Shown in pieces: positions 2,647 through 62,424 of a stretch of 64,000 nucleotides of DNA. Made by a program: the position numbers and the translations under genes. The DNA is from Metellina segmentata (lineage: Eukaryota; Arthropoda; Arachnida; Araneae; Tetragnathidae). Below the pieces are notes generated by a model. That model searched no databases and had not been told where the DNA came from. It was given only the letters and a program-made list of their open reading frames with translations. The stretch's first letter is position 1. The number at the start of each line of letters is the position of its first letter. The stretch covers positions 77,481,100-77,545,099 of the forward strand of contig OX375872.1 of assembly GCA_947359465.1 (NCBI GenBank), in the 5' to 3' direction.

Positions 2647-4769
2647 TGTTCTGGAACACTCGATTTAGGATGAGATCATTTATGTTATGATACCTAATAT
2701 GTTTTGATAATTGAACCTCAGATTAAATTGTAAGTTTTCCGTGTATTGAAGACCACTTTGGCAGTCACTGCTTCGATTCGCCCACGTTTGAATTTGTCAC
2801 GTCGTTCTGAATTCGTCCACGTTTATTTCAGAATAATCAAAATGTTTGACCAGTTACTTCTTAAGAAAATAATAAGTTTATTGAAGAATAACCAACAATT
2901 TCATTAATTTTTTCTGTAGATTTTTCAATTCCGGGGCACTTATATTTTTAAAATTTGAATTAACTACAACTTTCATCTGTTCACACTTTGATTGAATTCA
3001 GCCTTGGATTCAAAGATTATTTCAACGCACATGAAAGTTGTATTTTATTACATTTAGAAAACCTTGGCATATTATATAGCGGTGTTAAAATTCAGCTATG
3101 GATAGGAGTATATTATAACATTCCGTCGTAGTTAAAATTCCAGATATGGATGAGGAGTATACTGTCTGAGAAAGCCATCGCAAGAAAAACTTAGTATTCT
3201 TAGTAACCTATAGTTCTACCTACTAGCTATTCATATATCTTATAAGCCTAATTTCGATGTTATTGAAATAAAATTTAATACGATTGATAAGGAATAAGAA
3301 TGAGTTAATGTGCAGTGAAATGTTGCAATTACAGTTTCTAAAAATCAATATTTTGCTTTTAAAATATTGTGCTGGTTATAGAGTTGATTGATCTTCAATA
3401 GTCAGAAATTGTTTTGTCTAAATAAAAGTAACAATTAAACATTCCTTGCAGAAAACTGTACTAAATATATGAGGACAGAGGTATCCAAATCCCTGGTCAC
3501 TTCAAGTAGTTATAAAAATGTGTGGGTGGGAATAGCACGAAAAGAAGATTCTAGAGAACCCGGTTTCCATATCATATTTCAGCAATTTAATTACAATTTA
3601 CGTAAATTCAGAAAAATTAATCTTACATTTTTTACTGAAGTGCTGAAAGTAAATCGCTAAAAAGTGATAACTATATATATATAATTTTACGATTACATTG
3701 AATCTTTGAGAAGCTGCTTTTTTAGATTAAATTCCTTATAATTTGTTATTGAAAACCGGTATTAAAATAAGGCGTCACTATAAAGGGGATTTAGGTTCTT
3801 CGTTAATATTAACTCATTACGTATACTGACAAACAAATGTTTTTACTTTACAGCTGTTTAAATAGTGACAATTCGTTTTTATCTCAAAAAGTAAAAATTA
3901 TAGATATTTTGTATAGTGTAATGTATCTTTTAAACAAATTGCAGTGCGACAATGCACTGCTCATAATTATGAAAAAAAAAATTTTAAAGCTCCCAAAAAT
4001 GTCAGTTAATGAGTTTCTGCTCTAAGCCAACGATATAATGGCTGATCAAGAATATCGAAGATTTTTACCGAGAAGTCTTTAGATAACTCTTTAAAATACA
4101 GTGCTATCATGTAAACGTGTTTTTAGACTTACAACGTGTGAGGTTTTATACTTAGTCTGAATTTTGTATGAATGCTTTGGCAGTTTAACATTCAGAAGAG
4201 AGGTTTACATGCACGCTAATTCCAATTTAGACTACAACAGAATTTTACTGCATGTATATGGAGCCATTAGATCCGATTTCAAGGTGTATATTATACATTC
4301 TTAAAGCAATAGCTATAAAAAACTAAAAAAGTAACCATCGACTGGAAAGCGCACAAGACAATTTAGCTTGGGTATAAAAGCAATTTTACCATTAAAAGTA
4401 CATTGGTTGCATGAAACGTGAATTGTATACGGGAGGATATTCCTATATTTTATTTCTCTTCTAATATATGATGGTTTAAATTTTATGCTCTTGTTATGTA
4501 GATACGACTTGATCTAGCATTAGTTTAACTATTGCAGAAGTGTGTATACAAACGTCATAGCAATACCTACACAACATAAGTGGGCGTATGTAGTTTTACG
4601 CGCATGACAAGTTATTTTTTATTTCTACATCCCAAGTATAGTAGAGTTATCTAGCAAAATATATCAAATTAGATAGCATATCTAGATTCTTTAGGTTTTA
4701 TAGATAAGGTATTCATGATTAAAATAACTGATGTATGCATGCAGGATTTTGAGTTACCTGAGCAGAACT
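2647..4769. other. AT-rich intergenic stretch
   Basis: No confirmed gene. It holds the possible CUB-like exon at 3452-3601 and, at about 3945-4035, a ~90-bp segment that recurs at about 36270-36370 ('tgtcagttaatgag' and 'tctgctctaag' shared). Confidence 0.4.
3452..3601 (+). CDS. Possible internal exon with CUB-like end
   Basis: A good acceptor (ttccttgcag at 3442-3451) is followed by an open frame which, read with two phase bases first, gives a segment containing NVWVGIARKEDSREPGF followed by HIIFQQF. The GF-x(3)-F-x(2)-F ending and the preceding hydrophobic strand resemble the last strands of CUB domains (known family pattern). A weak donor (ttac|gtaaat) follows at 3601. No flanking exons were found with certainty; the open frame at 1348 ends in the compatible phase 1 but lacks recognisable content. 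It could be a gene fragment or chance. Confidence 0.22.
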
Positions 4770-4985
4770 TTAACTTTCCTGGTGATTGTCTCGACGAGGT
4801 ATCTCGTTCATTAGCAAAACAGACTAGATCGTGATGGACGAGATATCTTGTCATTAGAAGAAAACTGACAGGATTTTGATCTCGTGGTGATCTAAAAAGT
4901 GGCAATATCTTGATGACGAGATATCTGGCCATTCGCAAAATTGGTCCGATCTTGATGAACATGGAGGAACTACATGGAGGATTAA
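4770..4985. mobile_element. Palindromic TTAA-type MITE, copy A
   Basis: Bounded by TTAA on both sides (4770-4773 and 4982-4985). The left arm carries CCTGGTGATTGTCTCGACGAG and the interior repeats GACGAGATATCT-type palindromes three times. It matches the copies at 11338, 27408, 31998, 51497 and 59990. TTAA targets with CCCT/AGGG ends are the hallmark of piggyBac-type elements, so this is inferred to be a non-autonomous piggyBac relative. The 107-codon open frame across it is not a gene. Confidence 0.75.
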
Positions 4986-5543
4986 AGTGCATCTATTTTA
5001 TTTATAAAATTTGCTTTATACTCTGTTGAATACAGATTCATAACAAAATCTACTGTTATAGGAGAATTTTCAAGAAACACAAAGTACCAGTTTACGGATA
5101 ACCAAACCCAATATTCTTCTATTGAACGTTATTTTGGATTGAAATTGATCTATGTGTGTTGGTGGGCATTAAAAATGGCGAGTAATTTAATTTAACAAAA
5201 TGCTGGTGACACATGGGTAATTAGTATTTTACTTTCACAAACATATTTGATTCATTCGCCCTCTCGGTCTTAAGATAACGATAAATTGAGGTACGTTAAC
5301 GAATATATTAATGGCTGCGTTGAAAAGGTAAGTGGTATATCTTTTCTTGCTTAAGTATTTTAGCTATAGCCTCTAAAGTGCGTTGATGGACAACTGATGC
5401 TTCCTCTTTCGAAGCATTAGAAAAAATGTCTTTAAACTGAGAACAAGGCAAGTACTTTTGCATTTATCGAATTCTAAGAAACTTTAAATGAAAATTTGTG
5501 TAAATTGCGTTTGAAAAATAGTATACGTTTCATTCATATTTAA

Positions 5544-5860
5544 GGGCCGTGGTAGCCCGATTGAATGAGTAACGGATTAGCAACCGGATGGTTGTGAGTT
5601 CGAAACTTGACTCAACCAAAGACCATCGTGTTTACGGGGGCTGCTATGCGTTAAATCTGTCGTACAAACAAATGTTCCACATTGGTATGGTGTGGACGTT
5701 TCGACAGTGGGTTGCCATTTGAAGTGTTGACCTCGTCATCTGACCGTGGTTCAAAATTATGTGTTGTTGCCCTCATATCTCTTCGTTGGGGATTGTTACC
5801 GGACCATCGCCAATAGCCCGTTGTATTGCTCTCCAGAACGACGTTAATTAAATGCCATTA
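5544..5860 (+). repeat. SINE family 2, near full length
   Basis: The tRNA-like head starts at 'gggccgtggtagcccgattg', has an internal GAGTTCGAA box, then the shared body (cgtcatctgaccgtggttc) and the tail 'cgacgttaatt'. Several changes from other copies indicate age. Confidence 0.8.
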
Positions 5861-6234
5861 CTATTCATATTTAAAGACGCTATTTCTTATGTTTCGAATT
5901 TTTGCGATGACTTTATTTTACCGGCATACTGATTTTGATCTGAAAAGCTTTGTAGCTCCATTCTATTATATATTTTAGGCATGTAAAATGATGTCATATT
6001 TATATCCCCACAATTATTTTGTGTTTCAAAAATTTAAGTTGTAATGTAGAAAGTTGTGTAGTCTACAGATTTTACTTACACCTTATTTTATCACTTCAGA
6101 CCTCTATTGCACTACTCGTCATCTGATGGACAAGAGTTCGGAGACGGGTGTAGAATAAAGATTTTACTTACATATTTACTTATTCAACTGTAAACTGTTA
6201 ACATTTTCTAAAACTCTGTTTCTCTACCTTATGT

Positions 6235-6689
6235 TGTTGTTGTTGTTGTTTCTAATGCCTACACTGGCAGATCAGAGGAGTGCCAGGCCCGTCGAAGACG
6301 GCAAGAGGCGAGGGGGTGCGCCTTCCATGTTATTGAGCCCCATTGGGAGGAGGTCCGACTTCGCTCGGCATACATGACACATCCGTTTTACAGGAAGGTC
6401 CCTTTCATACATCCATTCACTCACACATATCGTAATTTAGATACCAATCAGAGGCCGACAACCCTCTGATCAGATACCCCCAGAGGTATTGATTTGGTAT
6501 GGGAACATGGGGGACTTTGTGACCACGACCTATTTAACGTGCCCCAGTCACCATTAGTGAACACGACGGTCTTTAGCCAGGTCGAAGCGCCGATCTCACA
6601 ATCGTCAGAATTGCAGGCTCCGCCGAGGACAGAACCCACAACCCTTCTGATGCGAGCCCGACGCTCTACTGACTGAGCTACCGCGGCTC
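6235..6689 (-). repeat. tRNA-derived SINE, distinct family, with target duplication
   Basis: On the minus strand the element starts with a tRNA-like head (gtagctcagtcagtagagcg, then an anticodon-arm-like segment and GTGGGTTC) and ends in a (CAA)n tail, seen on the plus strand as (GTT)n at 6234-6250. It is flanked by an 11-bp direct repeat ctaccttatgt at 6224-6234 and 6690-6700, the target-site duplication. It is unrelated in body to the other SINE families here. Opposing open frames across it are not genes. Confidence 0.85.
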
Positions 6690-7291
6690 CTACCTTATGT
6701 AAAGAAGTTTTACCCGCGACTCATCAAGTAAAAATTTGCTTTTAAGTTTAATTATAAACTCTTCAAGTGTTATTGGGTTAATTGAAACTAATTCTAAATA
6801 ACACTCACATTCTCATAATGTTTTTAAATATAAACATGGTATTTCTTGTTTCTTGTAGAATAATATAGATTTAATAAATATTGCCATTTTGAGTACTTAC
6901 TAATATGTGGTTAGACAAAATATTACTTATATACTATATCTATACAACAGCCCATAATAACATAGTTCAGTTTCCTCAAAATGAAAGACATTACTAAAAA
7001 TGGGGTATTGAGTGTGCTAGGTAAATTTATATCGTTTTTCGGTTAATTGTACATATAGAAACATTCTGAATAATAATTGTTTAAGAGTATTAACCTGTAA
7101 AGTCATAAGTGTGTGCATTAAATTAAAAAATTTTGAACTGAAATTTAATTTATTCACATCGATCTAATCATAGCAGCTTGTGATAGTTACTTGGTTGCTA
7201 GTCATATTTCTGCATATTTATTTAATCGATTCTTACCATCCATTTAAAGTATCATCCATTTAAAGTTCTCTTCCATGTTTTTTAGATTACG

Positions 7292-7373
7292 ATGTATGAA
7301 TCAAGACGAGTACTTATGACTATGCTTATGTACATTTTTCTCCTCAATGCTATTGCAGGAGAAAGATGTAGAG
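7292..7373 (+). CDS. Signal-peptide exon of the Pro-X-X repeat protein
   Basis: ATG at 7292 opens 27 codons with a hydrophobic core (VLMTMLMYIFLLNAIA), a classical secretion signal, followed by GERCR and a donor G|GTAAAT at 7373/7374. The exon ends in phase 1, and the large downstream exon starts with two bases after either of two nearby acceptors, so the frames join exactly. A possible acceptor (ttttttag at 7277-7284) just before the ATG suggests a further 5'UTR exon. The only cysteine of the whole protein seems to lie here. I chose this start because it supplies the signal the large exon lacks. Confidence 0.72.
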
Positions 7374-7718
7374 GTAAATATTTTATCTGTACTATACCTT
7401 TATATCTTTTCTCTATTACGTAGATTTTAGGTTATAAATCACGCAGTTTTAAAAAATTGTGATTCTATTGCAATCTTAAATTTTATTTGGAATTTTATAC
7501 TTCAAAACTAGTGATAAAATTCAATAATGTCATCATTGAATTGACTGTGAATTAAGACACTCGATAACGCGAATAGTAAGGCATAGGATAATATACAGAA
7601 AACATAAAATGTGTTTACAAAGTTAAATGCATGTAATTTTGATTATGAAAAACGTACACAATTTTGATTTCGAATAAATTATGTTGCCAAATCATTAATT
7701 TTCACTTTCCAAGAGGTT

Positions 7719-8270
7719 GTTTCAACGAGAAATCTCGTCCATTATCTGGTCACTTTTCTTTAGGACAAGATATCTCGTCCAAACAGCCGACCAACCGGTA
7801 TAGTGGTAAAGGAGTTGGCCTCTAGATCGGAAGGTTCCTGGTTCCAATCCGGGTCAGGGCATGGATGTTTGTAAGCGTATGGTGTAGAGGCGGCTGGTGC
7901 ATCTTAAATCTGTTGTAGCCAAAAGTCCTCACGTTGGGTTGGTGTGGAAGTTTGGAGAGTGGGGTGCCAGCTCTGATGTTGTCTTGTCATCTGACAGGGG
8001 TTCAAAATTACATGGCGATACACCGAATGGCTTAGGTTGGGACGGTGGCAACTAGTTAAATCTTGTCGAGACAAAATTGCTTTATTACTCGAAGGGGAAT
8101 GAAGTTCCAAGTTGGAAAAAAATTGCCCCTTGCCAAGAATTGATGACAGTTTGGAACAGGTTCTCGCACCAGAGCTGGCTACTACAAAGCCGTACTATAC
8201 TTTCGACGTAAAGATAAATCACCAGGAGGGTCACTTCATGACAAGTTCCCATTAACCAGGCACTCAAATA
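7719..8270. mobile_element. Longer relative of the palindromic MITE, interrupted by a SINE
   Basis: 7719-7788 carries the MITE arm (tcaacgagaaatctcgtcc, gatatctcgtcc). A SINE family 1 copy interrupts it, and after about 8060 the sequence resumes as 'cttgtcgagacaaaattgc' and continues for ~200 bp that also follow the MITE arm at 31025-31220. The shared ~200-bp part may once have been coding but is frameshifted here. The whole lies in the intron of the Pro-X-X gene. Confidence 0.55.
7789..8030 (+). repeat. SINE family 1
   Basis: The tRNA-like head reads gccgaccaaccggtatagtg with A-box 'tagtgg' and a B-box-like 'ggttccaatcc' (one change from GGTTCGAATCC); then comes the family 1 linker (gcatggatgtttgtaagcg) and the body shared with family 2. 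It is truncated before the usual tail and sits inside the MITE relative at 7719-8270. Confidence 0.8.
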
Positions 8271-8805
8271 GTACAATTTTAAGAACAAAGCATTTTATAT
8301 TTTTGAGGAAATTGAAAACTAGTGTCTGATATGAAACAAATTAACATGCAAAGTGTTACTACTGTTTTATGACTGACAGTTCTTAAAATTTAGGGAAACG
8401 AGTAAAGAGGACTTTTAAAAAGCTAAGAAAAACAGAAGAAAGGTCATCGTATTACGACAACGGTATTATTCATTAATCTTACAAAGCAGTCTTACCATAT
8501 GTAAATTAAGGCTATACAAAACCTATCGCATACACGCTACAGTAAAAGTACGATTGCCCCTATCCGGCTGAGCCGTGAGCGAATACACAGATTTAGAGGC
8601 TGGCATATATAATTAGTGGTTTAATAAAGACATCAAATTTCTAAACTGTGTCAAAAGAAAATTTTATAGAGTGATGCTTTTATATTTTCAATTAAAATTA
8701 ACTACCTCAAAAAATAAATTATAAACAATTAAATGTTGCCTTGTATATTATGAGTTATAAAAAAGCTTGAATATCATTTCTTATCTAATATATTTTACCA
8801 AGTAG

Positions 8806-11303
8806 GTAGAAATTCTACCATACCTCTCCAGCTTCCATCAGTGGATGGATGGACACCACCCTCTAACCTGCCGAATATGGAAGTTGTGCCTACAATATCA
8901 AGCGTTCCAGGAATGAATGGAGTTCCCACACTGCCAAGCGTACCAGACGGTCCAACATTACCGAATATGCCCGAAGTTCCTACTTTACCGAATATGCCCG
9001 ATAGACCGACGGTTCCAAGTATGCCTGTAGCTCCGACATTGCCTAATATGCCGGATGCGCCAACTATACCCAATATGCCTGAGGTTCCCACACTACCGAA
9101 CGCACCAGATGGACCTACTGTTCCTAGCATACCACAAATACCTAGGCATCGTCATTTACTTGGAATATATGAGAGAGAATCTCGTCAACTTCCGTCATTG
9201 GATGGATGGACACCGCCCTCTAACTTACCGAATGTGGAAGTTATGCCTACAATCCCAAGCGTTTCTGGAATTAATGGAGTTCCCACAGTTCCTAGTGCAC
9301 CAAATGGCCCAACACTACCGAACATGCCCCAAATTCCTACTTTACCGAATATGCCCGATGGACCGACAGTTCCCAGCATGCCAGTAGCTCCAACATTGCC
9401 TAATATGCCTCCAGCCCCAACTCTGCCGAATATGCCAGATGCACCCACTTTACCTGGTGCACCAAATATTCCAGAGGGAGCTACTGTTCCTAGCAATCCT
9501 AATATACCAGACATAAATGAAATTCCTGATATGTCGCGAATATCCAAAAGGTTACATTCTCGCTTAAGTTCTATTGAATCTCGCCAGCTTCCACCAGTGC
9601 CAACATTGCCTAATATGCCAGTCGTCCCAACACTACCGAATATGCCCGATGGACCGACAGTTCCCAGTATGCCAGTAGCACCAACATTGCCTAATATGCC
9701 GCCAGCTCCGACTCTACCTAACATGCCAGATGGGCCAACTTTACCTAATATGCCAGTAGCACCAACATTGCCTAGTATGCCAGACGCCCCAACACTACCA
9801 AATATGCCCGATGGTCCGACAGTTCCCAATATGCCAGTTGCACCAACATTGCCTAATATGCCGCCAGCTCCGACTCTTCCTAGCATGCCAGAAGGACCAA
9901 CTTTACCTAATATGCCAGTAGCACCAACATTGCCTAGTATGCCAGACGCCCCAACACTACCGAATATGCCCGATGGCCCGACAGTTCCCAATATGCCAGT
10001 AGCACCAACATTGCCTAATATGCCGCCAGCTCCGACTCTTCCTAGTATGCCAGATGGACCAACTTTACCTAATATGCCGGATGCACCAACTTTACCAAAT
10101 ATGCCAGAGGGACCCACATTACCAAGTATACCGAATGCTCCAACTCTGCCAAACATGCCAGTAGCACCTACTTTACCGAATATGCCAGATGGACCAACTG
10201 CTCCTAACGTGCCAAATATGCCTGGTGCTCGTGCAGAGAACGACTCCCCCTTTATTTCAGAAAAACATGCTTTACTGCACAATCGTTATTCAGTAAGAAT
10301 GGAAGAAGTTCCTATTAACTTTAAAGAATCACCAATTCCAAGTCATCAACATTTATTTAGAATTAACAGGCACGTATCTCGCCAGTTTCCATCAGTGGAT
10401 GGATGGACACCACCCTCGAACTTGCCAAATATGGAAGTTGTGCCTACAATTCCGAGCGTTTCAGGAATTAATGGAGTTCCCACAGTTCCTAGTGCACCAA
10501 ACGGCCCAACACTACCAAATATGCCCGATATTCCTACTTTACCGAATATGCCCGATGGACCGACTCTTCCTAGCATGCCAGAAGGACCAACTTTACCTAA
10601 TATGCCAGTAGCACCAACATTGCCTAGTATGCCAGACGCCCCAACACTACCGAATATGCCCGATGGCCCGACAGTTCCCAATATGCCAGTAGCACCAACA
10701 TTGCCTAATATGCCACCAGCTCCTACTCTTCCTAACATGCCAGAAGGACCAACTTTACCTAATATGCCGGATTCACCAACTCTTCCGAACATGCCTAGGC
10801 ATCGTTATTTACTTGGAATAGATTTAAGAGAACCTCGTCAGTTTCCAAATGGATGGACACCCCCTTCGAATGTGCCAAATGTAGATGTACAACCTACAGT
10901 ACCGAATTTTCCTGGAATGAATGATATGCCCACAATGCCAAATTTACCTCCAGGGCCTACTTTACCGAACTTACCAGAAGGACCTACATTACCAAATATG
11001 CCAGAAGTACCAACTCTCCCAACTGTGCCCAACAGATCTGCACTAATCCCAGAATCAATCAAGAGAAACCTTCGAAATATCCAAAATCTTTTTGCACCAA
11101 GTGTTCCGAAAAATTTTGGCATTCATCGTAGAGCATTAAAAGACTTTTCTCGCTTGAACCCTACGTTTCCGGCTGTTCCAGGTCTACCAAATCAACCAGA
11201 CCTTCCTAACTTCCCTGATAAACCTAAAAACACTACTAATAATATGACTGAATCTGAAATCCCTGGAGTTTTCATTCCCGCTTATTCTGTTACTTTAGTT
11301 TAG
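8806..11303 (+). CDS. Secreted Pro-X-X triplet-repeat protein (main exon)
   Basis: Joined to the signal exon at 7292-7373, this gives an 859-residue protein with no recognised family. Almost all of it is a strict Pro-X-X triplet array organised in 27-bp nonapeptides (PTLPNMPDG, PTVPSMPVA, PTLPNMPPA): proline at every third residue for stretches of over 100 residues, apparently no cysteine, Met or Leu at regular positions. Basic spacers start new modules at Gln155, Gln288, Gln554 and Gln706 (RESRQLPS, IESRQLPP, HVSRQFPS, REPRQFPN); three of these are followed by a conserved block with GWTPPSN. The last ~90 residues (from about 770) are non-repetitive, with an NNMT sequon. By inference the repeats form polyproline-II rods of an extracellular structural, glue or silk-associated protein. 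The acceptor is ccaagtag at 8798-8805, or 3 bp earlier. Function unknown. Confidence 0.8.
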
Positions 11304-11767: not shown

Positions 11768-11773
11768 AATAAA
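11768..11773 (+). terminator. Candidate polyadenylation signal of the Pro-X-X gene
   Basis: AATAAA 465 bp after the stop codon, followed within 60 bp by T-rich sequence. This is the first such hexamer after the stop that I see on this strand. Confidence 0.45.
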
Positions 11774-13913: not shown

Positions 13914-15321
13914 TACACTTATAGCCATACAAATTTGCGCACAAAGAAAAAGTCGTCAAAATGAAACGAAATTTTACACATGTAAGTACTACTTTGATAT
14001 AAGTAAGTGATTAGAAAATCAGGAGGAAGGATCATTTTTATAGTAGAAAAAAGTACAAATGAACGGAAGTTTAAGAACTCTGTTGGACCCCCTCTAGCTC
14101 GAATGCACGATGCGATACGAGCGAGCATTGAGGTATACAAATTCTATATGATGTCCTGAGACATCTCGTTCCACAGTTGCTGTAAACGCGCCTCTAGTTC
14201 GACCAAACTCGTAGGGTATCCAACTTGTCGTCCCAAATTATCTCAGATATGCTCGATTGGTGACAAATCTGAGGATCGAGCAGGCCAGGGAAGAGTGATA
14301 ATGTGACGGAGGTAGTCTTGTGACATCCTTGCTGTGTGTGGCCGAGCATTGTCTTGTTGAAAAATGGCTTCTGGGAGCCTTGCCATGAGTGACATCACAT
14401 GTGGCTGAAAGATGTCATGGACGCACCACTGAGCTGTCATTGTGCCATGGATCAATATTAGGGGTGACCGTGTATCGTAAGCAATGGCACCCCATACCAT
14501 CACACCTGCTGTGGGAGCGGTGTGTCGCTGTAAAGCTAAGGCAGGATTGAGGCGTTCACCACGGGGCCACCACATACGAACACGACTGTCATCACTGCTC
14601 AAATTAAATCTAGATTCGTTGCTGAAGACGAACCGGTTCCATTCCGTTTCAGTCCAATCAAGTTGGGAGCGACACCACTCCAAACGAAGGAGTCGGTGGG
14701 TGGGTGTCATTGGGAGCACACGTAATGGGCGCCGCGATACCAGATGTCCTTCAGCCAGGCGCCTTGAAATGGTTCGGGAAGACACAGGGGCCCGTAGCGA
14801 AGGTGTTGCCTGTGTCTGGATAGCGGCCAATGAGGCAGTTGGCTCTACGCGTGCGTTTTGTATGATGTGACGGTCTTCTCGACGACTAGTCAGTCGAGGG
14901 CGTCCTGAGCCTGGTCGCAATGTAAATGACGCCACTTGTCAAAACACCTCCTCAAAGTAAAATCAGAACGGCCCACTTAACGAGCCACTCGCCGAGCTGA
15001 CCACCCAGCTTCCCTCAACCCGATGATTCTTCCCCTCTCGAACTCTGACAGATGCTTATATTGTCTTCGATGGCGGCGTAACGGCATGTCTATCTCAGCG
15101 TTTCCTTTGCACAAGATTAAGTACACTCAAACAAACTCTGCTTACCTGTTTTATACTCCAAGGAGAACGAAGTTCAAAGCCCTCTAGTGCCATTACGCAA
15201 TGTGCAATCATGCTGCATTTCTAATCATTTGCATATCTCGCCGACATGTACCTTCATGCGAAGTTTCGTTACGATCCCACAATTATTTCTTGTTGCGCAA
15301 ATTTTTATGGCAATGAGTGTA
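13914..15321 (-). mobile_element. Tc1-like element 1 (inactive)
   Basis: About 31-bp inverted ends: left TACACTTATAGCCATACAAA, right (reverse) TACACTCATTGCCATAAAAA, both running into TTTGCGCA. Each is flanked by TA, the Tc1/mariner target. Length ~1.4 kb is normal for the family. It carries one broken transposase on the minus strand. Confidence 0.88.
14063..15087 (-). pseudogene. Tc1-like transposase remnant (element 1)
   Basis: ATG at 15087 opens MPLRRHRRQYKHLSEFERGR, the usual N-terminal helix-turn-helix region, with an in-frame stop about 35 codons in and a frameshift near 14950. The catalytic part is readable from 14935: VFSNESRFNL (first Asp replaced by Asn), FQQDNARPHTA (second Asp) and LSPIEHI (Glu). 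Stops follow IEH (TGA where Trp is usual) and again near 14152, before the C-terminal CIRARGGP. DDE recombinase of the DD34E type by family knowledge. Clearly dead. Confidence 0.88.
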
Positions 15322-15332
15322 TACACTCTATA

Positions 15333-16699
15333 ACAAAAAAATCGACGCATCAAGAAGGAGTGTCCAAAAGAAACAAAAATTGGTGGATAGGAAAATTATG
15401 TACAGAATAGAAAATGATTAAAATTTCAGAACAATTGAATGATTTATTTCAGAGTTACTGTAACGAGCTCAATAAGGTGTTGACCCGCCTCTAGCCTGGA
15501 TGCAAGGTGCCACAAGGCGTGGCATAGACCGATAAAGCTCCCGGATGGTCTCCTGCGGTATTTCTTGCCAAATTTGCTCCAATTGTCGGACTACGTCGTC
15601 AACATTCCCTACCGGATGCAGTCGCCTTCCCTTCATATCCCAGACATGCTCGATGGGAGAGAGATCTGGTGATCTGGCTGGCCAAGGAAGTGTTTGACAA
15701 GCTTGAAGACAGTTCATAGCAACACGTGCCGTATGTGGTCTGGCATTGTCTTGCTGAAAAATAAGCCCAGGGTACTGCGAAAGGAACGGTAGCAAAACAG
15801 GTCTCAGAATGTCGTCAACGTACCGCTGTGCAGTAAGTGTAAATCTAATGACGACCAAAGGGGTCTGGCTATCAAGGGAAATGGCACCCCAGACCATAAC
15901 TCCTTGTTGAGGGCCCGTGTGGCGTGCCATAGTGAAAGCAGGGTCTCCAGACACGTCTTCGATGATCGTCAGGACACAGTTGGAACCGGGATTCGTCGCT
16001 AAAGACTATACGTCCCCAGTCAGCATCATTCCAGCCTGATCGAGCCAAGCGCACCACTGTAATCTGGCTCGACAGTGTGCAGGCGTGAGTGGTAGGTGGC
16101 GTAACGGTCGGTACGAGCGTTGTTTTCGCTCTCTCAGCCGTCTGTGAATGATCATGGTGGACACTCGTGTGTGGGTCGCACGACTGATGGTTGATAGCGA
16201 TGAATCAGGCGCTGTGACAGCTGATCTGACAGTCACTATGTTCTCGCGATCTGTTGTGGCCTTACGTCGACCGCTACCATCATGACGCTGAAATCTGCCA
16301 TGGTCCACCCACTCTTGCCAGCATCTTCTAATCGCCGCATCGCTTCGATTCACATGACGAGCGATTCTCCGATTTGCTCAACCTGCCTCTTTCAATCCAA
16401 TGATACGACCTCTTTCAAACTCTGAAAGTTGCTCGTAATGAGCTCGAATCCTGCTGCGAGGCATTTTTTTAGTTGTTGAAAGGTATCCTAAATAACAATG
16501 CAGCAGAAAATTTTAACAACAGTTCAAGAACAATTCCTTATATACATCTGCTGGATGCCCAGTTCCGATGCGCTGGAGATCGCACTATTCATTCATTGGA
16601 CACCAAATTTTAATCCTTTGCATATATGGTCAAAACATTTTTGCATACGAAATTTCAAAGCAATCGGACGATTCCTTCGTGGTGCGTCGATTTTTTTGT
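15333..16699 (-). mobile_element. Tc1-like element 2 (inactive)
   Basis: Inverted ends ACAAAAAAATCGACGCA on both sides (left 15333, right ending 16699), continuing imperfectly for ~30 bp, flanked by TA dinucleotides. It begins only 11 bp after Tc1-like element 1 and has the same orientation but different ends and a clearly different transposase. Confidence 0.88.
15469..16464 (-). pseudogene. Tc1-like transposase remnant (element 2)
   Basis: ATG at 16464 starts MPRSRIRAHYEQLSEFERGR; a TGA interrupts after KEAG. The frame continues through RRKATTDRENIVT and shifts near 16010-16050 and again near 15950. All three catalytic motifs survive: VFSDESRFQL, FQQDNARPHTA, SPDLSPIEHVWD, giving DD34E spacing. 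The C-terminus ends CIQARGGSTPY. It has fewer lesions than its neighbour, so is probably younger. It moves DNA by cut-and-paste in the family; this copy cannot. Confidence 0.9.
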
Positions 16700-21259: not shown

Positions 21260-21790
21260 CATATATATATATTAATAAAGTGGTTGCCGCAGCCGCCGTC
21301 GCAGGATTGAAAACACGGTTTGTTCAAAATTGTACAGGGTTAACGATGAAGTGGATTATTTTCCGAGGCGGCTATTAGTTTAGGGTTTATTAAGTGTCCC
21401 AGTAGGAAAAGCGTAATTTCTACCGCGTGTGAGCAAAAGACGTATACATTTTCAGTCTTATGGCTCCTGAGAATATTTTCCATCACCAATGTCGCCTTTT
21501 TTTGGGAACTTTTCTTCCTATTTCTCTTTAATAAATCTTTAATGATAATATACGCTGCACTCGCGATTATGCGCCGACTTCGTAAAGAACGAGACCTTAA
21601 AACAATTTGCTTCAAACAATAAGTTTGCAGTTTAACTTCAACACACAACCAACCAGATTGATCGCGAGCACATGGAACATTTTGTGTCCGAGCTGTCAAA
21701 CCAGAAAAACCAGAGAGATTGATTCACCAAACCTGTCTCCGGGGTTAATCAATCATCCATGTTTTGCTCTGCTTCTCCGGTGTGGACGGC
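19472..21790. mobile_element. Inverted-repeat element of unknown superfamily
   Basis: About 60-bp terminal inverted repeats: 19474-19537 begins cgtccacaccggagaagcag and its reverse complement is at 21724-21788; both contain ATGATTGATTAACC and GGAGACAGGTTTG. The interior (2.3 kb) is AT-rich without a transposase that I recognise, and holds several TTTGC-GAA-GCAAA hairpins (20770-20940) and a long (TA)n run. The end sequence is loosely like PIF/Harbinger ends, but no 3-bp target duplication is clear. Confidence 0.6.
21186..21273. repeat. (TA)n microsatellite with ACAT interruptions
   Basis: About 85 bp of AT dinucleotides broken by two 'tacat' units. The open frame across it is meaningless Tyr/Ile. 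Confidence 0.97.
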
Positions 21791-22199
21791 ACAGCCGAGG
21801 GCATCCCAGGGTTTCAAAATGGTATCGCGTGTGCCTTGTTTGGACGGATAGTGGAACACAAACTCGTGGTACCCGGGCATACAGTCCATTCAAGTGTAGC
21901 CTTCGGCGCACAGTAGTGGCAGATATCGTCTTACCAATGAACGTTGTAACCATAGATGTCACACGGGTGGAGGTCGCTCTTCGTTTCCGCTTCGCTACAA
22001 TAGCAATATATCGATCTTCATCGGGGTTCGTAACCCTTGGGCGGTCAGTCACAGGTCTTTGGACTACTATTTGGCTTGCGTGGAATTGTTTCCACAATCG
22101 TGAAATGACGGAATGATGAACGCCGAAGAAAAGAGCAACATCAGGGATTGATTGCCCTGTTTCAAGGCGTCCCACACAACGCCAGCGCTCACTATCTGC
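21790..22199 (-). pseudogene. N-terminal half of Tc1-like transposase (element 3)
   Basis: Reads SERWRCVGRLETGQSIPDVA then LFFGVHHSVISRLWKQF: the paired helix-turn-helix DNA-binding domain of Tc1 transposases, followed by RRATSTRVTSMV and LYARVPRVCVPLS. It stops at ~21790 where the inverted-repeat element begins. No usable start Met at the expected place. Inactive. Confidence 0.85.
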
Positions 22200-22764
22200 A
22201 TCTTATGGAAGCCATAGTAACACGTCTGTTTTGAAAACTAATCGCACGAAAGTTCTAAACACTTTTTACAGCACTTACATGCAAATCCTCTAACCCTTCA
22301 CAATGCTGACTTCTTATACGACTGCATATTTTTTGCATATTTCTAGACACGAAACCGTGATTGGCTGTTACATAACACGTTTGCATACTTCCATCTACCT
22401 CTGCAGCAAATTACAGCTTCTCAAATTCACATTGGCTTCTGGAAATTAACAGTTTCCTCTACGTGCTTAACTTTTGGTAGTGTGTGTATATTATGGCACA
22501 TAAGATCAAAATTTGCTGGCATTAATATAAAAAGTTGCATAAAACCTTCAATGATATGAATTGTTGATTTAAATATGCTGAGGGAGTGACAGTGAGTAAG
22601 CGAATGATAAAAATTATGAAACGGGATTTAAAAAGACAATGTCATTTAAAAATTAGAAGATATTGGAGTGTGCGGATTTTCTCTTCTTAAATAATTTAAC
22701 TCTACAATGTGTCCATTACTATAGATATGCGTGATTATAAAAAGTTGGATAGTCAATTATAATA

Positions 22765-26600: not shown

Positions 26601-29600
26601 GTCACATTTGTCAAAATTGGAAAATAGAGACTTACAGAATTCAGAAATCATAATTGAAGCTCTAGTAACAGAACAAATTTCAAGTTCTGATTTACCGCCT
26701 CCTAATTTGAGTGGACATTTCATAGATAAGAACCGCACAAACAGGAGATAAATACACCACAGTAAATAAAATGGAAATAATTTAATGTTCCTTGGGCGGC
26801 CCGGTATCATTTGATCCACGGACCGGTACCGGTCCGCGGCCCGGGGGTTGGGGACCACTGCTTTATATGATTAAGAATGCAATCTATTTAGTTCTGCGTT
26901 TAAGAGCATTTTGTCCATGAGAAATTTGAGAATAGGAGTAAAAATAACGTACAGTAAAATATATTTCTACAAGGTGAAGGGTTTTCACTCATGAAGTTAA
27001 TCTAAAATACTGTTTAACAGTGTCATTTAAAAGGTTAAGAATACCATTTATTAAAAATATTTTGAAACTGGTAATTTGAAAATGAAAACTAAAGTAGTAA
27101 AACACCAAAATTTTTATCACCAAATGCATTTTTGCAATGTATTAATCTTCATCCATAAATTTTTTAAAACCTTTTTAGTAGTGTCCATTGAAGGATTAAG
27201 AATGCATTCCATCTATATATGAGCTTAAGACAATTTTTTCCCATGGGTAATTTGAAAATGACAAGTTAAAGAGTAAAAAGTATCTACATTTTTTTTGTAC
27301 TTGCAAAATACTTTTCTACAAGGTGATAAATCTTCACCCTTAAAATTACAAAAATTAGTTATGTATTTTAAAGGGTTAAGAATGCATTCTATTAAGTTCC
27401 GCTTTTATTAACCCTCCTGGTGGTTGTCATGGCGAAATATATTGTCATTAGAAAACCATTAGTAGATCTTGATGGACGAGATTCTCATCATTAGTAGAAA
27501 ACTGACCAGATATTGATGATCGAGATATATCATCATTAGATGAAAAAACTGAGCGGATCTTGATCTTGTCATCATTAAAAAATCGACAGTAATTAGTCGT
27601 AGTACAGATCTTAATAACGAGATATCTCGTCATTAGCAAAATTGGTCAGATCTTGATGGACGAGGTATCTTGTCGAAACCACTTGGAGGGTGAAGAGCGT
27701 TTTTTCTATGGATTCTTTTAAAATGTATTCAAGATTCCTTCACACTCACCCGCACAGACGACCCCTGCTCGCTCTGTTTCTGCATTTGCTTGACCAGACT
27801 AATGACGATCGCATACTCAAGCAAGCTGAAGAACACGAATGCTATGCACGAAGACAGCCATATGTTCAGCGCAACGATGTACGAGACATTAGGCATCTGG
27901 GATTGATACTGCTTCGTGATGATGGTCAGTAAAGACGTCACCCCCATAGTGATCCTGGCAGGGACTGCTTCCGGAGGAATCCAGAAAGTGAGCATGGACA
28001 TAAGGACTATGAGGACGGTGGGGATGTAAGTGTTGATAATGAAGTAACCGCTTCTTCGTGTCAAAATGAAGTACACTTGAACGCAACTGAAAAACTCTGT
28101 GAAAGAAGAAATGTCAATACAACAGCATCCATATCTACAGTGTGTGCCAAAAGTCACGAAGTGGTTTCAATGTTTTTAGTAACTTTTTGTTTAAAGTTTA
28201 CAATATCGTAGAATTTTATGCAGTATCTACAAGATACAAATTTACACTAGTTGTGAAAAATCAAACATTTTAAATGGTGTTCATTTTCTGCTTCGCGCAA
28301 TTGGGCCCTCTCGAAGTCGGTTTTCACGACACTTCCTCAGTGTTTCAGGTTCCAGTGCCCCGATTTCAACCCGAATATAGTTATTCAGCTGTTGGAGTGT
28401 CTGAGGATTGATAACATAAACTTTGTCTTCGAGGTAACTCCATAGGAAGATATCGAGTTGGTTGTTCTGGCGCGGAACCATATTTGGTCAAACTGCGCCA
28501 AGCACGAGACAACGTCAAGTTAAAAATGTCGTGAAAGGGGAAGAAAGAGCCATTGAGGAACAGATTAGTGGATAAAGCAAACAAGATAGCTTGAGTATAA
28601 GACAGTATATAAACCCCATGGGAATAGAAAAGATCACTATAGTACCTCGGGTTCGTGAAGCCCGTGAACACTTAATGGAGATGCCCCTCCCCCGGAAGGC
28701 CGTAGAACTCGTGAGTTGTCAGATCTGGAGAATGCGCAAACAGGGCGTGAGCTGCCTATACGTGGAAGGTCGCTTACCGAACCCAGTTCCTTAAAACGAC
28801 CAATCAAACGTCTGATCATTTGATTCGCTTGGAAAATCTTTCACGACATAATGTCGACGATTTGCTCATTGGGTCAGAATTATTGATTCTCGAGTTTGAT
28901 AGTTGTTAAATGTCACAATATGTATTCGCTGTTTGGTCGTGAATTTTTCCACGGATAATCTCAAAGGTCTTTATAAAATACCCGTAGAAAAAGGTAGTAG
29001 GTCTGAAGTTTTAGTAACTTTTAATGATTCTTTTAAATCATTAAAAGTTACTAAAACTTCAGACCTTTCGTGACTTTCGGCACAACATGCTTATAATATC
29101 ATCGGAATTAAAGCTTTTACCTCCATACAAGTGAGTATCACATCTGGAAATGGTCATATTACCCAATTCGAATTGAGGCAGATTCATTAGACGACTGAGG
29201 CGTATCGATTCTGGATGCCTCCAGTTTAACTCAAGGTCTGTTGAAGGATTCATCACTTAAAACATACGAATAACAAATGTTAGACTCCGTTCGCACCTTT
29301 CAGTTCATAACATGTGTGATTTGCAGAAATGCATAAAGACAAAAGGTGTTGGATGTTAGACAGAACACAAAATGCAAAAATATTGTCAAACCCTCTATTT
29401 GTCGCGGGTCCTTTTTTAACAAATGGGATCGCGGTGCATTGTGGCAGGATGATGCGCTACAGACAATGACACAGCCAAAATACAATTAAAATAACATTCC
29501 ATTAAACATATGAATTACACTATTTGCTTCATTTTAGCACGGATTTGTGTTCCTTGCTTGTGGGCCCTGTATAAAGAGAATTAGAGGCTCACGGATCAAT

Positions 29601-32600: not shown

Positions 32601-33673
32601 GAGGCCCTAAGGGATCCTGGTCTTATAGTAGTCATATTTGTTGATTATTACTATTGAAAGGGACTTTAAAATGATTATATCAAATACATACAAAACGAAA
32701 GTCTTTCAGATTTTTAAACAGATTGGGGATATTAGACAGAATGTAGGGGGGGGGGTTTCATGCAACTATCTAATAATAATATTTGATTATTATTTCATTA
32801 ATGAACATTGTTTTATTAACAAACGTACCAAAGCTGTTAAGCATTGGTAAATTTGTTTTGAACTTTATTAGTTTGAGTTACGTACGTTTACAAACATATT
32901 AGTAGTACGTTTACAAGCGTTTTAGTAGTACGTTTGAAACTTTTTATTAGTTCAGATGTAACTAATAACGTGACTATTAATTTAAAAATCCTAAAATAGA
33001 AATGGCACAAACAGTCTCAACTAAAATTAAATACCATGTGCGATTTTTGATGCTTGCGAAGGTCCTTCAGTGGTCTGAGAACAGAGTGGTCCTAGTTAAG
33101 ATACAGATCATATAAAACCAAATAAAGGAGACAAAAAGTATGTTCTAGTTCGGCACATAGGAAGGACCATCCATTTTACTCTACCGAAATGTGCACACAC
33201 TTAAATTACGTGCATTCATAGTTAAGAAAAGAAGTGTCACTCGAATGAATACCTTCCAGAGAAGCAAATTGTCCTGTTTCGCATGAACCAGTAGAATACG
33301 GTTGGTATGACCCACTGCTGCAGCTTCGTGTCCAGTGCGTTTTTAAACCAAAGTTTGGGGGTCCAGATTTCCGTCGCCCAAGAATCATCGAGGACTATTT
33401 TGGCGCGGTCCTCAGGTAATCTCGAAGGAAAAACTAACCTATTGTCCGTCCATCGCAGATGCAGAAAACAGTCCATTTTAAAATTCTGCAAAGGAAAGAA
33501 ATCTATTACACGAACCTACATAAATTTAATTGAACTAACAGAATATATTTCAATAAATGTTTTATTTTACCTGAATAGTGGAGACTATATTTACTTACCA
33601 TACAGTGGCTTAAAATTGGAAATACTATAAGAAGTGCAAGTAAAACCACTTTTACTGCATATTCAGTGACCAT
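23520..33673 (-). CDS. Cys-loop ligand-gated chloride channel subunit (six exons, 344 residues)
   Basis: Exons 33673-33599, 33485-33253, 30769-30687, 29237-29121, 28096-27750 and 23699-23520 join with matching phases (0,2,1,1,0) into 345 codons including stop. Family landmarks: signal peptide (1-24), WTDNRL, WTPKLWFKN, the Cys-loop C110-x13-C124 (CDMDMTKYPHDSQFC), the second disulphide C163-x10-C174 found in glycine, glutamate and histamine chloride channels, TM1 (~187-209), TM2 with PAR at 215-217 (anion-selective), TM3 (~240-267), a short cytoplasmic loop and TM4 (~317-340). It would form a pentameric anion channel in the plasma membrane; the ligand cannot be told. Oddity: no helix 1/strand 1 region (about 50 residues) between signal peptide and NFKMDCFL. 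Introns are full of transposons. The signal exon is the least certain part. Confidence 0.85.
23840..24012 (-). repeat. SINE body fragment
   Basis: Shared body in reverse (acgtcgcactggagcaacg, cacggtcagatgacgagg); the head is missing. It lies in the last intron of the channel gene. Confidence 0.65.
24013..25649. other. Intron sequence of the channel gene, mostly unique
   Basis: AT-rich, no exon-like frame found. 24190-24300 resembles the head of SINE family 3 (cactgcgctagcaacctgc) and 24330-24425 a family 2 linker (ttggcctcaaatgtgctcgc). Confidence 0.4.
25795..26860 (-). mobile_element. hAT element, internally deleted, with 8-bp target duplication
   Basis: Ends CAGTGCTCCCCAACC and GGTTGGGGACCACTG, each followed inward by CGCGGACCGG-type sequence; flanked by the 8-bp direct repeat CTTTATAT (25787-25794 and 26861-26868), exactly the hAT rule. 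At 1,066 bp it retains only scraps of transposase. Confidence 0.93.
26148..26348 (-). pseudogene. hAT transposase fragment (C-terminal dimerisation region)
   Basis: Contains YPEIATTALKSLFAISDNLF, which fits the conserved 'YP-x-L-x3-A-x2-LL' block preceding the C-terminal hAT dimerisation domain. No start, no catalytic residues. The neighbouring open frame 26562-26858 runs into the terminal repeat and is only partly coding in origin. Confidence 0.55.
27408..27694. mobile_element. Palindromic TTAA-type MITE, copy D
   Basis: Left end TTAACCCTCCTGGTGGTTGT at 27408; right end CACTTGGAGGG then TGAA (27691-27694, one change from TTAA). Carries the palindrome ACGAGATATCTCGT near 27617. It sits ~55 bp inside intron 5, next to the donor of channel exon 5. 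Confidence 0.88.
27750..28096 (-). CDS. Channel exon 5: TM1-TM3
   Basis: Acceptor tttcacag; starts with two bases completing Glu170, then FFSCVQVYFILTRRSGYF, TM1, the TM2 stretch PPEAVPARITMGVTSLL and TM3 ending SLLEYAIVISL. Donor CGG|GTGAGT at 27750/27749, phase 0. The open frame beyond 28096 and below 27750 is intron. Confidence 0.93.
28281..28481 (-). pseudogene. C-terminal fragment of mariner-type transposase
   Basis: FLWSYLEDKVYVINPQTLQ and IGALEPETLRKCRENRL match the conserved 'FLWGYLK-KVY' and 'I-x4-L' end of IS630/mariner transposases. The catalytic domain is deleted. Confidence 0.65.
28490..28740 (-). repeat. SINE family 3, diverged
   Basis: Shares 'tttggtcaaactgcgccaag', 'acgagacaacgtcaag' and 'cgtgaagcccgtgaacactt' with the copy at 52890-53320. 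It interrupts the mariner remnant. Confidence 0.55.
28999..29066. repeat. Perfect 31-bp inverted repeat with 6-nt loop
   Basis: 28999-29029 (aggtctgaagttttagtaac...) is the exact reverse complement of 29036-29066. It belongs to the right terminal repeat of the mariner remnant, duplicated head to head, ~55 bp from the donor of channel exon 4. Confidence 0.95.
29121..29237 (-). CDS. Channel exon 4: loop C region of the ligand-binding domain
   Basis: Acceptor ttcaacag; completes His131, then LELNWRHPESIRLSRLMNLP and QFELGNMTISRCDTHLYG. LPQF-x-L is the family signature before loop C, and Cys163 is the first cysteine of the second disulphide. NMT is a sequon. Donor G|GTAAAA, phase 1. Confidence 0.88.
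29825..30223. mobile_element. hAT-type MITE (short member of the 45661-48631 family)
   Basis: Flanked by GTTGCACC / GTTGCACT (29818-29825, 30224-30231), an 8-bp target duplication with one change. It splits a family 3 SINE whose left and right parts flank it. The ends share AGTAGACTGAGCAT, CATGATCATGTGACCAAAA and GTCACGTGA with the larger element at 45661-48631. Confidence 0.75.
30224..30350 (-). repeat. SINE family 3, right part (left part 29786-29817)
   Basis: 'acaacgtcaaataaacggat', 'ctggcacagaagagaaaata' and a degraded tRNA-like head. Interrupted by the hAT MITE. Confidence 0.6.
30687..30769 (-). CDS. Channel exon 3: the Cys-loop
   Basis: An 83-bp exon between acceptor atccttag and donor GCTC|GTAAGT encoding VTLELSCDMDMTKYPHDSQF then CGVSIIA. 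The 13 residues between the two cysteines are diagnostic for the family; PHD is the chloride-channel variant. The small size explains why it lacks a long open frame. Phase 2 in, phase 1 out, matching both neighbours. Confidence 0.92.
30956..31220. mobile_element. Longer relative of the palindromic MITE (second copy)
   Basis: TTAACCCTCTAG at 30956, two palindrome blocks, then 'tgtcgagacaattctgcctt' followed by ~180 bp shared with 8060-8270. In this copy a frame reads RKTNCPLPRTGDSLEEVFAP and DAGHYKVVFDAKLITRRDN from about 31073; whether it was ever coding is unknown. Intron 2 of the channel gene. Confidence 0.5.
31497..31633. mobile_element. Palindromic TTAA-type MITE, copy E (partial)
   Basis: Right end CACTTGAAGGG-TTAA at 31630-31633 is intact; the left end is worn. 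Contains gaacgagatatctcatcgaa. Confidence 0.7.
31998..32208. mobile_element. Palindromic TTAA-type MITE, copy F
   Basis: TTAACCCTCCG at 31998; right end accaccagtag-TTAA at 32205-32208. Internal gacgagatatcgcgtc. Inverted relative to copies D and E. Confidence 0.8.
32320..32630. repeat. Two-copy tandem duplication (~150-bp unit)
   Basis: 32335-32480 and 32485-32630 share 'gtacagtgaa-ata-ctta', 'cacttgtactggactcatgt' (one or two changes) and 'catcaaa-gaggcc'. No gene; the frame upstream (from a TTG at 32237) looks hydrophobic but has no ATG. Confidence 0.7.
33253..33485 (-). CDS. Channel exon 2: ligand-binding domain core
   Basis: Acceptor tttgcag, then NFKMDCFLHLRWTDNRL (fits the family's W-x-D-x-RL), DDSWATEIWTPKLWFKNA (fits IW-x-PD-x-FF-x-N) and VFYWFMRNRTICFSG. 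NRT is a sequon. Donor GGAAG|GTATTC. Phase 0 in, phase 2 out. Confidence 0.88.
33599..33673 (-). CDS. Channel exon 1: signal peptide
   Basis: ATG at 33673 opens MVTEYAVKVVLLALLIVFPI, a strong signal-peptide core, then LSHCM and a donor ATG|GTAAGT. The following intron is only 113 bp, and phase 0 matches exon 2. It directly precedes exon 2, leaving no room for the usual N-terminal helix of the family. Confidence 0.65.
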
Positions 33674-53740: not shown

Positions 53741-54948
53741 TTAAACCTCAATGCAGGTCTTAGAACATCTAATCCTACAGCATATTCGCGATCCAAGACA
53801 ATGGCTATTCACTGCACACGCATCTTGAGATAGAAACCAGAACAAACATATTCCAGGTGGAGGGCACTTGTGTACAGCATTGGTAGAGTTGTTCGAGTCC
53901 ACTTCAGTAAGAGCAACTTCAGTAAAGTCAGTTTCATTAGTTAGGCTTGACATATTAGAAATCGACGTTTCGTTGATTTTTTCCATGGGTTCAGTGAAAT
54001 TAGTTAATTCCAAGGATTCAGTGACATTTTCAAGTTTAGTATCTAGGGTTTCATTTCCAAATTCAGCAAAGTCTGTTTCATTTGTTACGGTTGACAGATT
54101 TGAAATCAATGTGCCGTTCATGTCCCCCGTGTGTTCAGTGACGTTAGTTAATTCTAGGGGTTCATCGACATTTTCAAGTTCAGTCGAGTTAAGAAAATTA
54201 GGAGTTTCGTTTTTGATTTCCACGAGTTCAGTGATGTTCGTGGTGCTGTTTTTGTCTTCAAACATTTCAAACTCTTTAACACTTTCAGAGCCATTTAAGT
54301 TAACATCAGATGAATTAAAAAGTTCTTGCACGACCGTTATTTGACCAGAATTTGAACCATCACCGTCTTCTGGAGTAGGCATCACTACATCCAGAAAAGA
54401 ATGAAATTCGTTTTCTTCAATGATATGATCAGTTAGGGAGTCCGTAAAATTAAAAACCTCCATTGCCTTAGCCGCATTTTTTGCAACTTCAGAATTTCTG
54501 AAGAACTCAAATCCAAGATTTGAAAATATTCCTTCACTTGCGTTCACATCAGATAGGTTTTCCACTTCTCCCAAAATTCCAGACTCAACGTTGTCAATGT
54601 CAATGTTTGAACCCAAACTTCCGTTTATTTCTTCAACACCATCACTTATATCCCCCGAAAAATTCATATCGTGGTTGCTTTCAGCTTCATTTCGAGGTAG
54701 TGATGAGGAGGCATTTGAATCGCTTCCATTAAGTCGGACTTTGAACTCCTCGACCCTAGATTCAGTTTCATTAAGTCCTTTAGTTTGGTTAGACACTTCT
54801 CCAAATGAACTCTCGTCTCCAATAATGCCGTTGTCAGCAATGTCATCCGATGCGACTTCGCTTACTATGCTGCTAGGAAATTCAACGTTTGTAAAAGCGG
54901 ATTTTGTTTCGTTGGACACGCGGGCGAGTGTCGAGTTATTGCTCCCAT
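53741..54948 (-). CDS. Sequon-rich secreted protein with C-terminal WAP-like domain, exon 2
   Basis: Starts at acceptor tttttttcag, two bases completing Asp148, then GSNNSTLARVSNETK. Exon 1 is at 61801-62242; together 549 residues. About 360 residues are acidic and rich in Asn, Ser, Thr and Glu, with some 25-30 N-x-S/T sequons, so heavily N-glycosylated if secreted. A ~45-residue unit recurs (LELTNVTEHTGDMNGTLISN versus LELTNFTEPMEKINETSISN, each followed by ...TNETDF). The last 42 residues hold eight cysteines (KCPPPGIC, DAC, SHC, ICC, RC, KTC), the four-disulphide WAP layout. WAP domains are often protease inhibitors or antimicrobial; the role here is unknown, and mucin-like or gland-secreted matrix is an inference. 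Confidence 0.85.
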
Positions 54949-61165: not shown

Positions 61166-61800
61166 AGTAGGATGACCCTAGATGCAGAATTATATTCAGT
61201 GTTCTGCAACACAACTCAAAGCAATTGCAATTGCAATTGCTCTCCAGGTATTTTGTCCGAATTTTGAAAACTGCAGTGAAGTCAAAAACGTAAAACACAA
61301 TTATCGGCTAAATATATGTATTACATATTTATAGTAAAATATCAAAATTAACTAACTAACTTTATTTAAAATCAAGGCATACTTTTAGAATTTACAATTC
61401 TGTCGATAACTTTATAAATAACACATTTATGTCAATGACAAAATATTTAACTTTTAAAGTGTTTGTAATAATTTGGTCGGTATAGGGAGTTTTCTCCGTA
61501 GCTAGAAAAGAGAAAAGATGTGGCAAGGAGCGCGCTTTGCACTGCAGAAAATCGTAACTTACAATTTAAAAAAATCGGCCAAAATTAAGATAAAATTATG
61601 GAATAATTGTTCTGCAAAGACTTTGTTCTACGACGTACGTCGCAGTTTAAGTACTTTCTGCTCCCGAGCAGATAACGATGTCACACCCTAGCTGGAAATA
61701 CACAGGAATAACTATCAGGAAAGCATTTTTCAGGTGTCTTAAACGTTGCCTCTTCCAATGGTAAACTAATACAACACAAAGTGACCGATAGCATACTTAC

Positions 61801-62242: not shown

Positions 62243-62424
62243 GATGACTTACGCTTACTTTAGAACAAGGGTAATCTTAAGACTCGTGTGAGCTTGTAAT
62301 TCGACTATACTTGACTTGTCCCAAGGTTTATGTATATCTTCACTTCTGATCTTAAAATATATCTGGTAAAGTTAAAGTTGATGTGACATCATAATCTTTT
62401 GGGTAGATGGGTAATTTAATTTAA

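Follow-up and report, generated by a model that had tools for sequence, protein, structure and literature searches.

Collagen chains have polyproline-II geometry, the polyproline-II helix being one of three residues per turn. In maize, passages of PMC6150340 describe the (VHLPPP)8 repeat of gamma-zein as amphipathic and self-assembling and the SAP peptide as a self-aggregating polyproline-II helix, and spider venom precursors, in the portion of PMC6832493 that deals with them, are cut at a quadruplet motif or, in a minority of cases, at dibasic sites. Here, we report on a 64,000-nucleotide stretch of the spider Metellina segmentata (GCA_947359465.1, contig OX375872.1, hereafter C12:77481100-77545099 and referred to as the window) and on a gene in it, gene A, which a first-pass annotation made from the letters alone had described as encoding a secreted protein with a strict Pro-X-X triplet. 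A search of the genome (1.665 Gb, 173 contigs) with the protein encoded by its second exon led to a neighboring Pro-X-X gene outside the window, gene B. We see a roughly even chance that the two are a divergent spider gene pair, whose products would be secreted precursors cut into Gln-starting Pro-X-X rods that associate with one another.

Organization and coding status of gene A

Joining exon 1 (7292-7373) to exon 2 (8806-11303) yields a reading frame of 859 amino acids that ends with TAG. The features of the gene are as follows (window coordinates, strand, description; a slash marks the putative point of cleavage).

7292..7373, +, exon 1 as deduced from the sequence, 82 nt (27 codons and one base, phase 1), with start codon and predicted signal peptide (MYESRRVLMTMLMYIFLLNAIAG...)
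7374..8805, +, predicted phase-1 intron, 1432 bases; acceptor at 8805, or at 8802 with the frame unchanged
8806..11303, +, exon 2, encoding the Pro-X-X protein in full, stop codon included; a start at 8803 is likewise in frame
8808..8930, +, module head 1 (RNSTIPLQLPSVDGWTPPSNLPN...)
8925..9149, +, Pro-X-X run, 25 triplets
9171..9287, +, spacer end and module head 2, putative cleavage RESR/Q between 9185 and 9186
9282..9479, +, Pro-X-X run, 22 triplets
9570..9605, +, spacer end, putative cleavage IESR/Q between 9584 and 9585, module without DGWTPP head
9591..10229, +, Pro-X-X run, 71 triplets, the longest
10362..10484, +, spacer end and module head 3, putative cleavage HVSR/Q between 10382 and 10383, without the quadruplet motif
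10479..10802, +, Pro-X-X run, 36 triplets
10821..10934, +, spacer end and module head 4, putative cleavage REPR/Q between 10838 and 10839
10929..11036, +, Pro-X-X run, 12 triplets
11160..11231, +, last Pro-X-X run, 8 triplets, followed by a non-repetitive C-terminal tail
11768..11773, +, AATAAA read directly, a possible polyadenylation signal 465 bases past the stop codon

Proline accounts for 221 of the 859 residues (25.7%) and glycine for 4.7%, and the spacing is exactly 3 in 168 of the 220 proline intervals. Strict Pro-X-X runs of at least 5 triplets (25, 22, 71, 36, 12, and 8) span 522 residues, and the claimed three-residue recurrence of proline is thus confirmed: the longest run comprises 71 triplets, whereas none of 10,000 shuffles of the protein's own residues exceeded 11. 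The nonapeptide P-T-[LV]-P-[NS]-M-P-x-x, also pointed out in the first-pass annotation, was recovered as 56 PTxPxxPxx units with Leu or Val at site 3 in 52 and Met at site 6 in 43 of them, which bears out the regular methionine as well. The reported lack of cysteine holds for exon 2, which encodes none, but not for the precursor, which contains a single cysteine within exon 1. The protein is not a single continuous fiber sequence; it consists of modules whose heads are conserved and whose basic spacers resemble cleavage sites. Across four copies, 18 of 41 head columns are invariant, and the modules are unequal, with 133, 266, and 152 residues between sites.

The coordinates and the frame of the in-phase signal-peptide exon hold, the splice itself being deduced from sequence, and the protein is accordingly probably secreted, as had been proposed. 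The donor of exon 1 (GAG/GTAAAT) matches 7 of 9 consensus positions and ranks best of 14 candidates in 4000-8790, eight of which were listed. Exon 1 is the weakest part of the model, and it is supported by the matching exon plan predicted for gene B.

To assess selection, we compared 35 nonapeptides from the two runs spanning residues 293-502 and 586-693, cut by register alone with no residue required. They differed at codon positions 1, 2, and 3 by 1.35, 1.69, and 4.70 per unit pair, respectively, with a synonymous difference (pS) of 0.644 vs a nonsynonymous one (pN) of 0.166. For the 56 pattern-picked units, pS was 0.681 and pN 0.208, with codon-position counts of 1.85, 1.83, and 5.22 that are biased because the pattern fixes four of the nine residues. 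Furthermore, comparison of three module heads gave a pS of 0.19-0.35 vs a pN of 0.05-0.08. Gene A is a real, constrained coding sequence.

Gene B, a head-to-head neighbor

Gene B is a 712-codon open frame on the opposite strand (C12:77456493-77458628). Together with a putative signal exon at C12:77459973-77460033 and a phase-1 intron of 1414 bases, it would encode a protein of 709 amino acids, and the starts of the two genes lie head to head, 28.4 kb apart. The signal peptide is followed by KDESREKR and then by nine modules of 71 to 81 residues, each opening with QIPGLPQ; EKR ends eight of the nine modules, and the ninth continues to the stop codon. The protein contains 75 Gln, and its spacers are rich in Lys. 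Across the nine modules, the first 36 residues show a single residue difference, in one module, and for this pooled segment pS is 0.311 vs a pN of 0.004, which argues for strong purifying selection on the protein. The best DNA match between the two gene regions (E value 1e-18, 128 bases) joins window positions 5739-5862, upstream of gene A, with a stretch past exon 2 of gene B, and it could be a dispersed repeat. We infer the kinship of the two genes from their position, exon plan, and protein pattern.

A proline-polar-hydrophobic triplet in both proteins

The third residue of the triplet was more hydrophobic than the second in 159 of 174 triplets of gene A and 171 of 182 of gene B, with mean hydropathies of −1.75 (second) and +2.23 (third) in the former and −2.01 and +3.06 in the latter. 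This difference amounts to 13.2 (gene A) and 15.9 (gene B) shuffle standard deviations, figures in which the repeats are not independent, and for that reason distinct triplets were counted separately. In gene A, 33 kinds follow the rule and 4 show the opposite (p = 1e-6), and for both genes taken together the numbers are 37 and 8. The main triplets are PTL, PNM, PDG, PTV, and PVA in gene A and PQI, PGM, and PEL in gene B. As judged from this pattern, both proteins are predicted to form a three-faced, amphipathic polyproline-II rod. The likeness to collagen drawn in the first-pass annotation stands in so far as the triplet is strict and a polyproline-II helix with a proline face is plausible; however, the other two places are not arbitrary. 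Since one is mostly polar and the other mostly hydrophobic, an amphipathic polyproline-II helix is a better comparison than collagen with its inward small residue.

Arg-Gln steps at the module borders

All Arg-Gln steps, four in gene A and nine in gene B, fall at module borders, against shuffle means of 0.38 and 1.15 steps, respectively, though the modules were delimited with these steps in view, and the shuffles test the number of steps and not their use. The contexts are RESR, IESR, HVSR, and REPR in gene A, followed by Gln-Leu/Phe-Pro, and REKR or V/I/K-EKR in gene B, followed by Gln-Ile-Pro. The quadruplet motif (Arg at −1, Glu at −2 to −4) is present at 12 of the 13 sites. All nine gene B sites are also Lys-Arg, and EKR is kept at each of them despite the variable spacer that precedes it. 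Within the Pro-X-X runs, only 6 of 38 Lys and Arg residues of gene A and 2 of 45 of gene B are located, the rest being concentrated in the spacers. These borders may well be cleavage sites, and the N-terminal Gln freed there could be converted to pyroglutamate.

Searches for relatives

No Pfam match, spidroin domains included, was found in the exon-2 protein of either gene. When exon 2 of gene A was compared with a set of 5.77 billion proteins, 20 matches with an E value of at most 0.001 were obtained among 8000 candidates scored; the eight of them that we inspected were judged to reflect proline periodicity and rejected as homologs. A gene A query without the PTxPxxPxx units gave 1053 candidates from the same set, none with an E value of 10 or lower. 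The gene B protein yielded 25 matches at or below 0.01 among 8000 scored, four of which were inspected and likewise set aside as proline-periodicity matches. The GWTPP head was absent from all 45 proteins retrieved, and Arg-Gln-[LFI]-Pro was present in one of them (P0022). Five matches in PDB, including collagen-like chains, were dismissed as compositional. As the protein candidates were limited by length and the spider proteome content of the set was unchecked, the absence of homologs is provisional. A literature search with words from the repeats of both proteins returned a single paper, on alcohol consumption, which is not relevant. The protein had been called unlike known repeat families, and within the Pfam and protein searches made it indeed belongs to no recognizable one; provisionally, genes A and B may be regarded as an undescribed family.

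In the genome itself, Pro-X-X searches gave 26 and 75 places, from the best 54 of 398 and the best 63 of 361 candidates, and a distant third gene could be missed since only the best candidates were scored. A module-head query (6 of 6 candidates scored) found four places, all within gene A. We inspected ten loci, two of which lacked a proline-rich frame, three more, one being gene B, and loci on contig C2. Apart from gene B, those inspected were rejected as relatives because they look like minisatellites or other repeats, one of them, on C13, lying beside a match to Spidroin_N. A long minisatellite at C3:99784711-99786039 is open in two frames on each strand; proline-every-third repeats (PSLPHT/PSLPHS) come from one of the four, and the array makes a useful negative control for gene A. 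The matches at C2:58396672-58480662, minus strand, fall within one open frame of 28,605 codons that repeats units such as TTTPGIPGQRTSPGVPGFSFPGQ; no stop was present in 15 of the 16 loci read. With Spidroin_N matches on the same strand at C2:58492966-58493301 and C2:58353320-58353670, this giant frame is presumably an aggregate-type spidroin.

Proposed working and alternative explanations

The working that we infer for both genes, from splicing and secretion through cleavage, pyroglutamate formation, and helix to assembly and function, would run as follows. The signal peptide would be removed from the secreted Pro-polar-hydrophobic precursor, and a trypsin-like or furin-like enzyme would then cut after the border Arg, freeing chains of about 70 to 270 residues whose N-terminal Gln can cyclize to pyroglutamate. 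Each chain would adopt a left-handed polyproline-II rod in which prolines line one face, polar residues (Thr, Asn, Asp, Glu, Gln, Gly) a second, and hydrophobic residues (Leu, Ile, Met, Val, Ala) the third. By means of the hydrophobic stripe, the rods could pack laterally or cover surfaces and so form an extracellular matrix, a coat, or a glue additive. The length of the chains, their repetitiveness, and their uncharged to acidic character favor a structural or coating role, with silk coat, glue, cuticle, clot, and seminal or venom fluid as candidate places of use; the extracellular fiber, adhesive, or silk-associated role suggested in the first-pass annotation is conjectural.

Several results weigh against this proposal. 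The exons of genes A and B showed no DNA similarity, pairwise comparison of their upstream, intron, and downstream DNA gave an E value of 0.01 at best, with none convincing, and the alignment of the two proteins is of low complexity and cannot prove common ancestry. The distinct triplets of gene B (7 vs 4, p = 0.55) comprise only 11 kinds and are not significant alone. Moreover, a Pro-polar-hydrophobic pattern of varying degree is seen in 31 of the 45 retrieved proteins, which were measurable, composition-matched, and unrelated, and which were chosen by similarity to the queries and thus form no independent survey of the rule; since unrelated proteins show it, the triplet rule alone is no proof of kinship. 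AlphaFold2, run without an alignment on 216 residues including the longest run, gave a mean predicted local distance difference test score of 55 and no secondary structure, a result that fits an extended rod or plain disorder and so speaks neither for nor against a rod. As to cleavage, HVSR of gene A is the one site of 13 without the quadruplet motif, Arg occupies −4 in only three of them, and the way in which the modules were delimited has to be kept in mind. Finally, an equally good donor candidate is found in 3 of 26 equal-sized window stretches, perhaps including that of gene A itself, and gene A is open on the antisense strand too, in frames of 366 and 152 codons.

Those antisense frames mean that openness alone proves little, and they would suit an open minisatellite, in which the triplet arises incidentally from tandem repetition of a 27-base unit and the protein is not selected; other genomic arrays (the C3 one described above and C9:54060945-54061589) do give proline-every-third frames. 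Nevertheless, the C3 and C9 arrays are nearly uniform and lack spacers, the other forward frames of exon 2 contain 53 and 22 stops, and the changes pile up at silent sites, most strikingly in gene B with its minute pN, so that this explanation is strongly disfavored and has hardly any probability left. Only slightly better placed, and in our view very improbable, is a clotting substrate cross-linked at wounds through the Gln residues of its proline-rich chains, like horseshoe-crab proxin, which part of PMC2573874 presents as a chelicerate transglutaminase substrate linked to coagulin. The abundant Gln and Lys-rich spacers of gene B would fit such a role, but gene A, with 11 Gln and 8 Lys, is poor in both residues, and proxin was likened by description alone.

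The tandem modules with quadruplet or dibasic sites reproduce the layout that the pertinent portion of PMC6832493 gives for spider venom complex precursors, and the genes might therefore encode a bioactive-peptide precursor (proline-rich antimicrobial, venom, or seminal) with many copies per chain. The expected pieces, however, are long, the rods are poor in Lys and Arg, unlike cationic antimicrobial or cytolytic peptides, and there is neither a cysteine frame nor a Pfam match; this explanation is unlikely. It is somewhat less doubtful, though still on the unlikely side, that the full-length chain works intact as a structural protein of silk, egg case, cuticle, or glue, the Arg-Gln borders being flexible basic linkers. 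Spider silk glands make long repetitive secreted proteins, and the genome in question is that of a spider with many spidroin genes: Spidroin_N (PF16763) has 31 matches in it vs none in 14 control genomes. The modules of gene A vary in length and are less regular than those of gene B, and its conserved heads would suit linker domains. On the other hand, neither exon-2 protein matches Pfam, spidroin domains included, all 13 Arg-Gln steps coincide with module borders, the quadruplet motif missing at just one, and EKR persists in gene B next to a spacer that varies.

Should the processed, self-associating rods be real, a spider material or coat would be made from an amphipathic polyproline-II triplet by a simple genetic rule that could be copied in protein materials, and quadruplet-motif processing, known from spider venom, may serve long structural chains as well. 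Both genes satisfy the one rule with different residues, one being nearly uniform and the other varied, and so offer a ready-made experiment on which faces matter. A further-reaching proposal, which we make tentatively and hold to be rather improbable, is that pyroglutamate-capped polyproline-II rods released from tandem precursors and assembling via a hydrophobic stripe represent a new class of animal structural biopolymer, a third design beside the Gly-X-Y of collagen and the beta-sheet and glycine repeats of spidroins.

Genomic surroundings

Elsewhere in the window, the minus strand carries exons of a Cys-loop neurotransmitter-gated channel at 27732-28166 and 33240-33515 (Neur_chan_memb, E value 8e-25; Neur_chan_LBD, E value 4e-6), which should help to locate the orthologous region in the genomes of other spiders. 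On the same strand, Tc1/mariner-type transposase fragments (Pfam HTH_Tnp_Tc3_2 and/or DDE_3) lie at 14243-14938, 15469-16005, and 21753-22202, and possible secreted-protein exons rich in Asn-X-Ser/Thr at 53741-54994 and 61766-62248, with a signal-like start in the second stretch, a WAP-like C terminus just under the Pfam cut-off, and a 144-base internal repeat; their assignment to a single gene is a guess. Beyond the window, C8:33893522-34394795 holds a tandem spidroin array, with seven full-length Spidroin_N matches of near-equal score within 0.5 Mb, in open frames of 2376-3496 codons. Among the contigs seen (C2, C3, C6, C8-C13), lengths fall from 138 to 114 Mb between C2 and C11, and C12 and C13 measure 158.5 and 79.1 Mb; C12 and C13 are perhaps the two X chromosomes of the spider, in which case the gene pair would lie on an X. 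The 32-kb contig C103 holds two copies of mitochondrial cox1 23,485 bases apart, with one frameshift in the copy read, and these are unlike the cox1 of the 17.8-kb C173. The C103 copies look insect-like, perhaps from prey or another contaminant.

Comparison with known systems

The bacterial Pro-X-X proteins retrieved (for example P0001-P0004, with the CAP-domain family PF00188) have Pro-polar-hydrophobic runs of up to 38 triplets, but these stretches are attached to globular domains, and the match is one of composition, with no evidence of kinship. With collagen, the spider proteins share a strict three-residue period, in which they carry proline and not glycine at every third place. Like spidroins, they are repetitive, probably secreted proteins of a spider; unlike them, they have no Spidroin_N in their exon-2 proteins, two predicted exons with a tiny signal exon, and a different repeat logic. 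The nearest physical analog to the proposed rods is the gamma-zein repeat with its SAP peptide, likened here without sequence comparison: a three-fold repeat with polar and hydrophobic faces is present in both genes, with a distinct-triplet count significant for gene A only. Gamma-zein, however, is a plant storage protein whose hexapeptide has PPP blocks instead of one proline per triplet, and it has no cleavage modules. The products of spider venom complex precursors differ in being short and cationic or cysteine-rich, the putative products here being long rods poor in basic residues and, as far as exon 2 of gene A is concerned, devoid of cysteine, yet the precursors themselves, as portrayed in part of PMC6832493, are alike in releasing serial products from one secreted chain and in having Arg at −1 and Glu at −2 to −4, as do 12 of the 13 borders in this spider gene pair.

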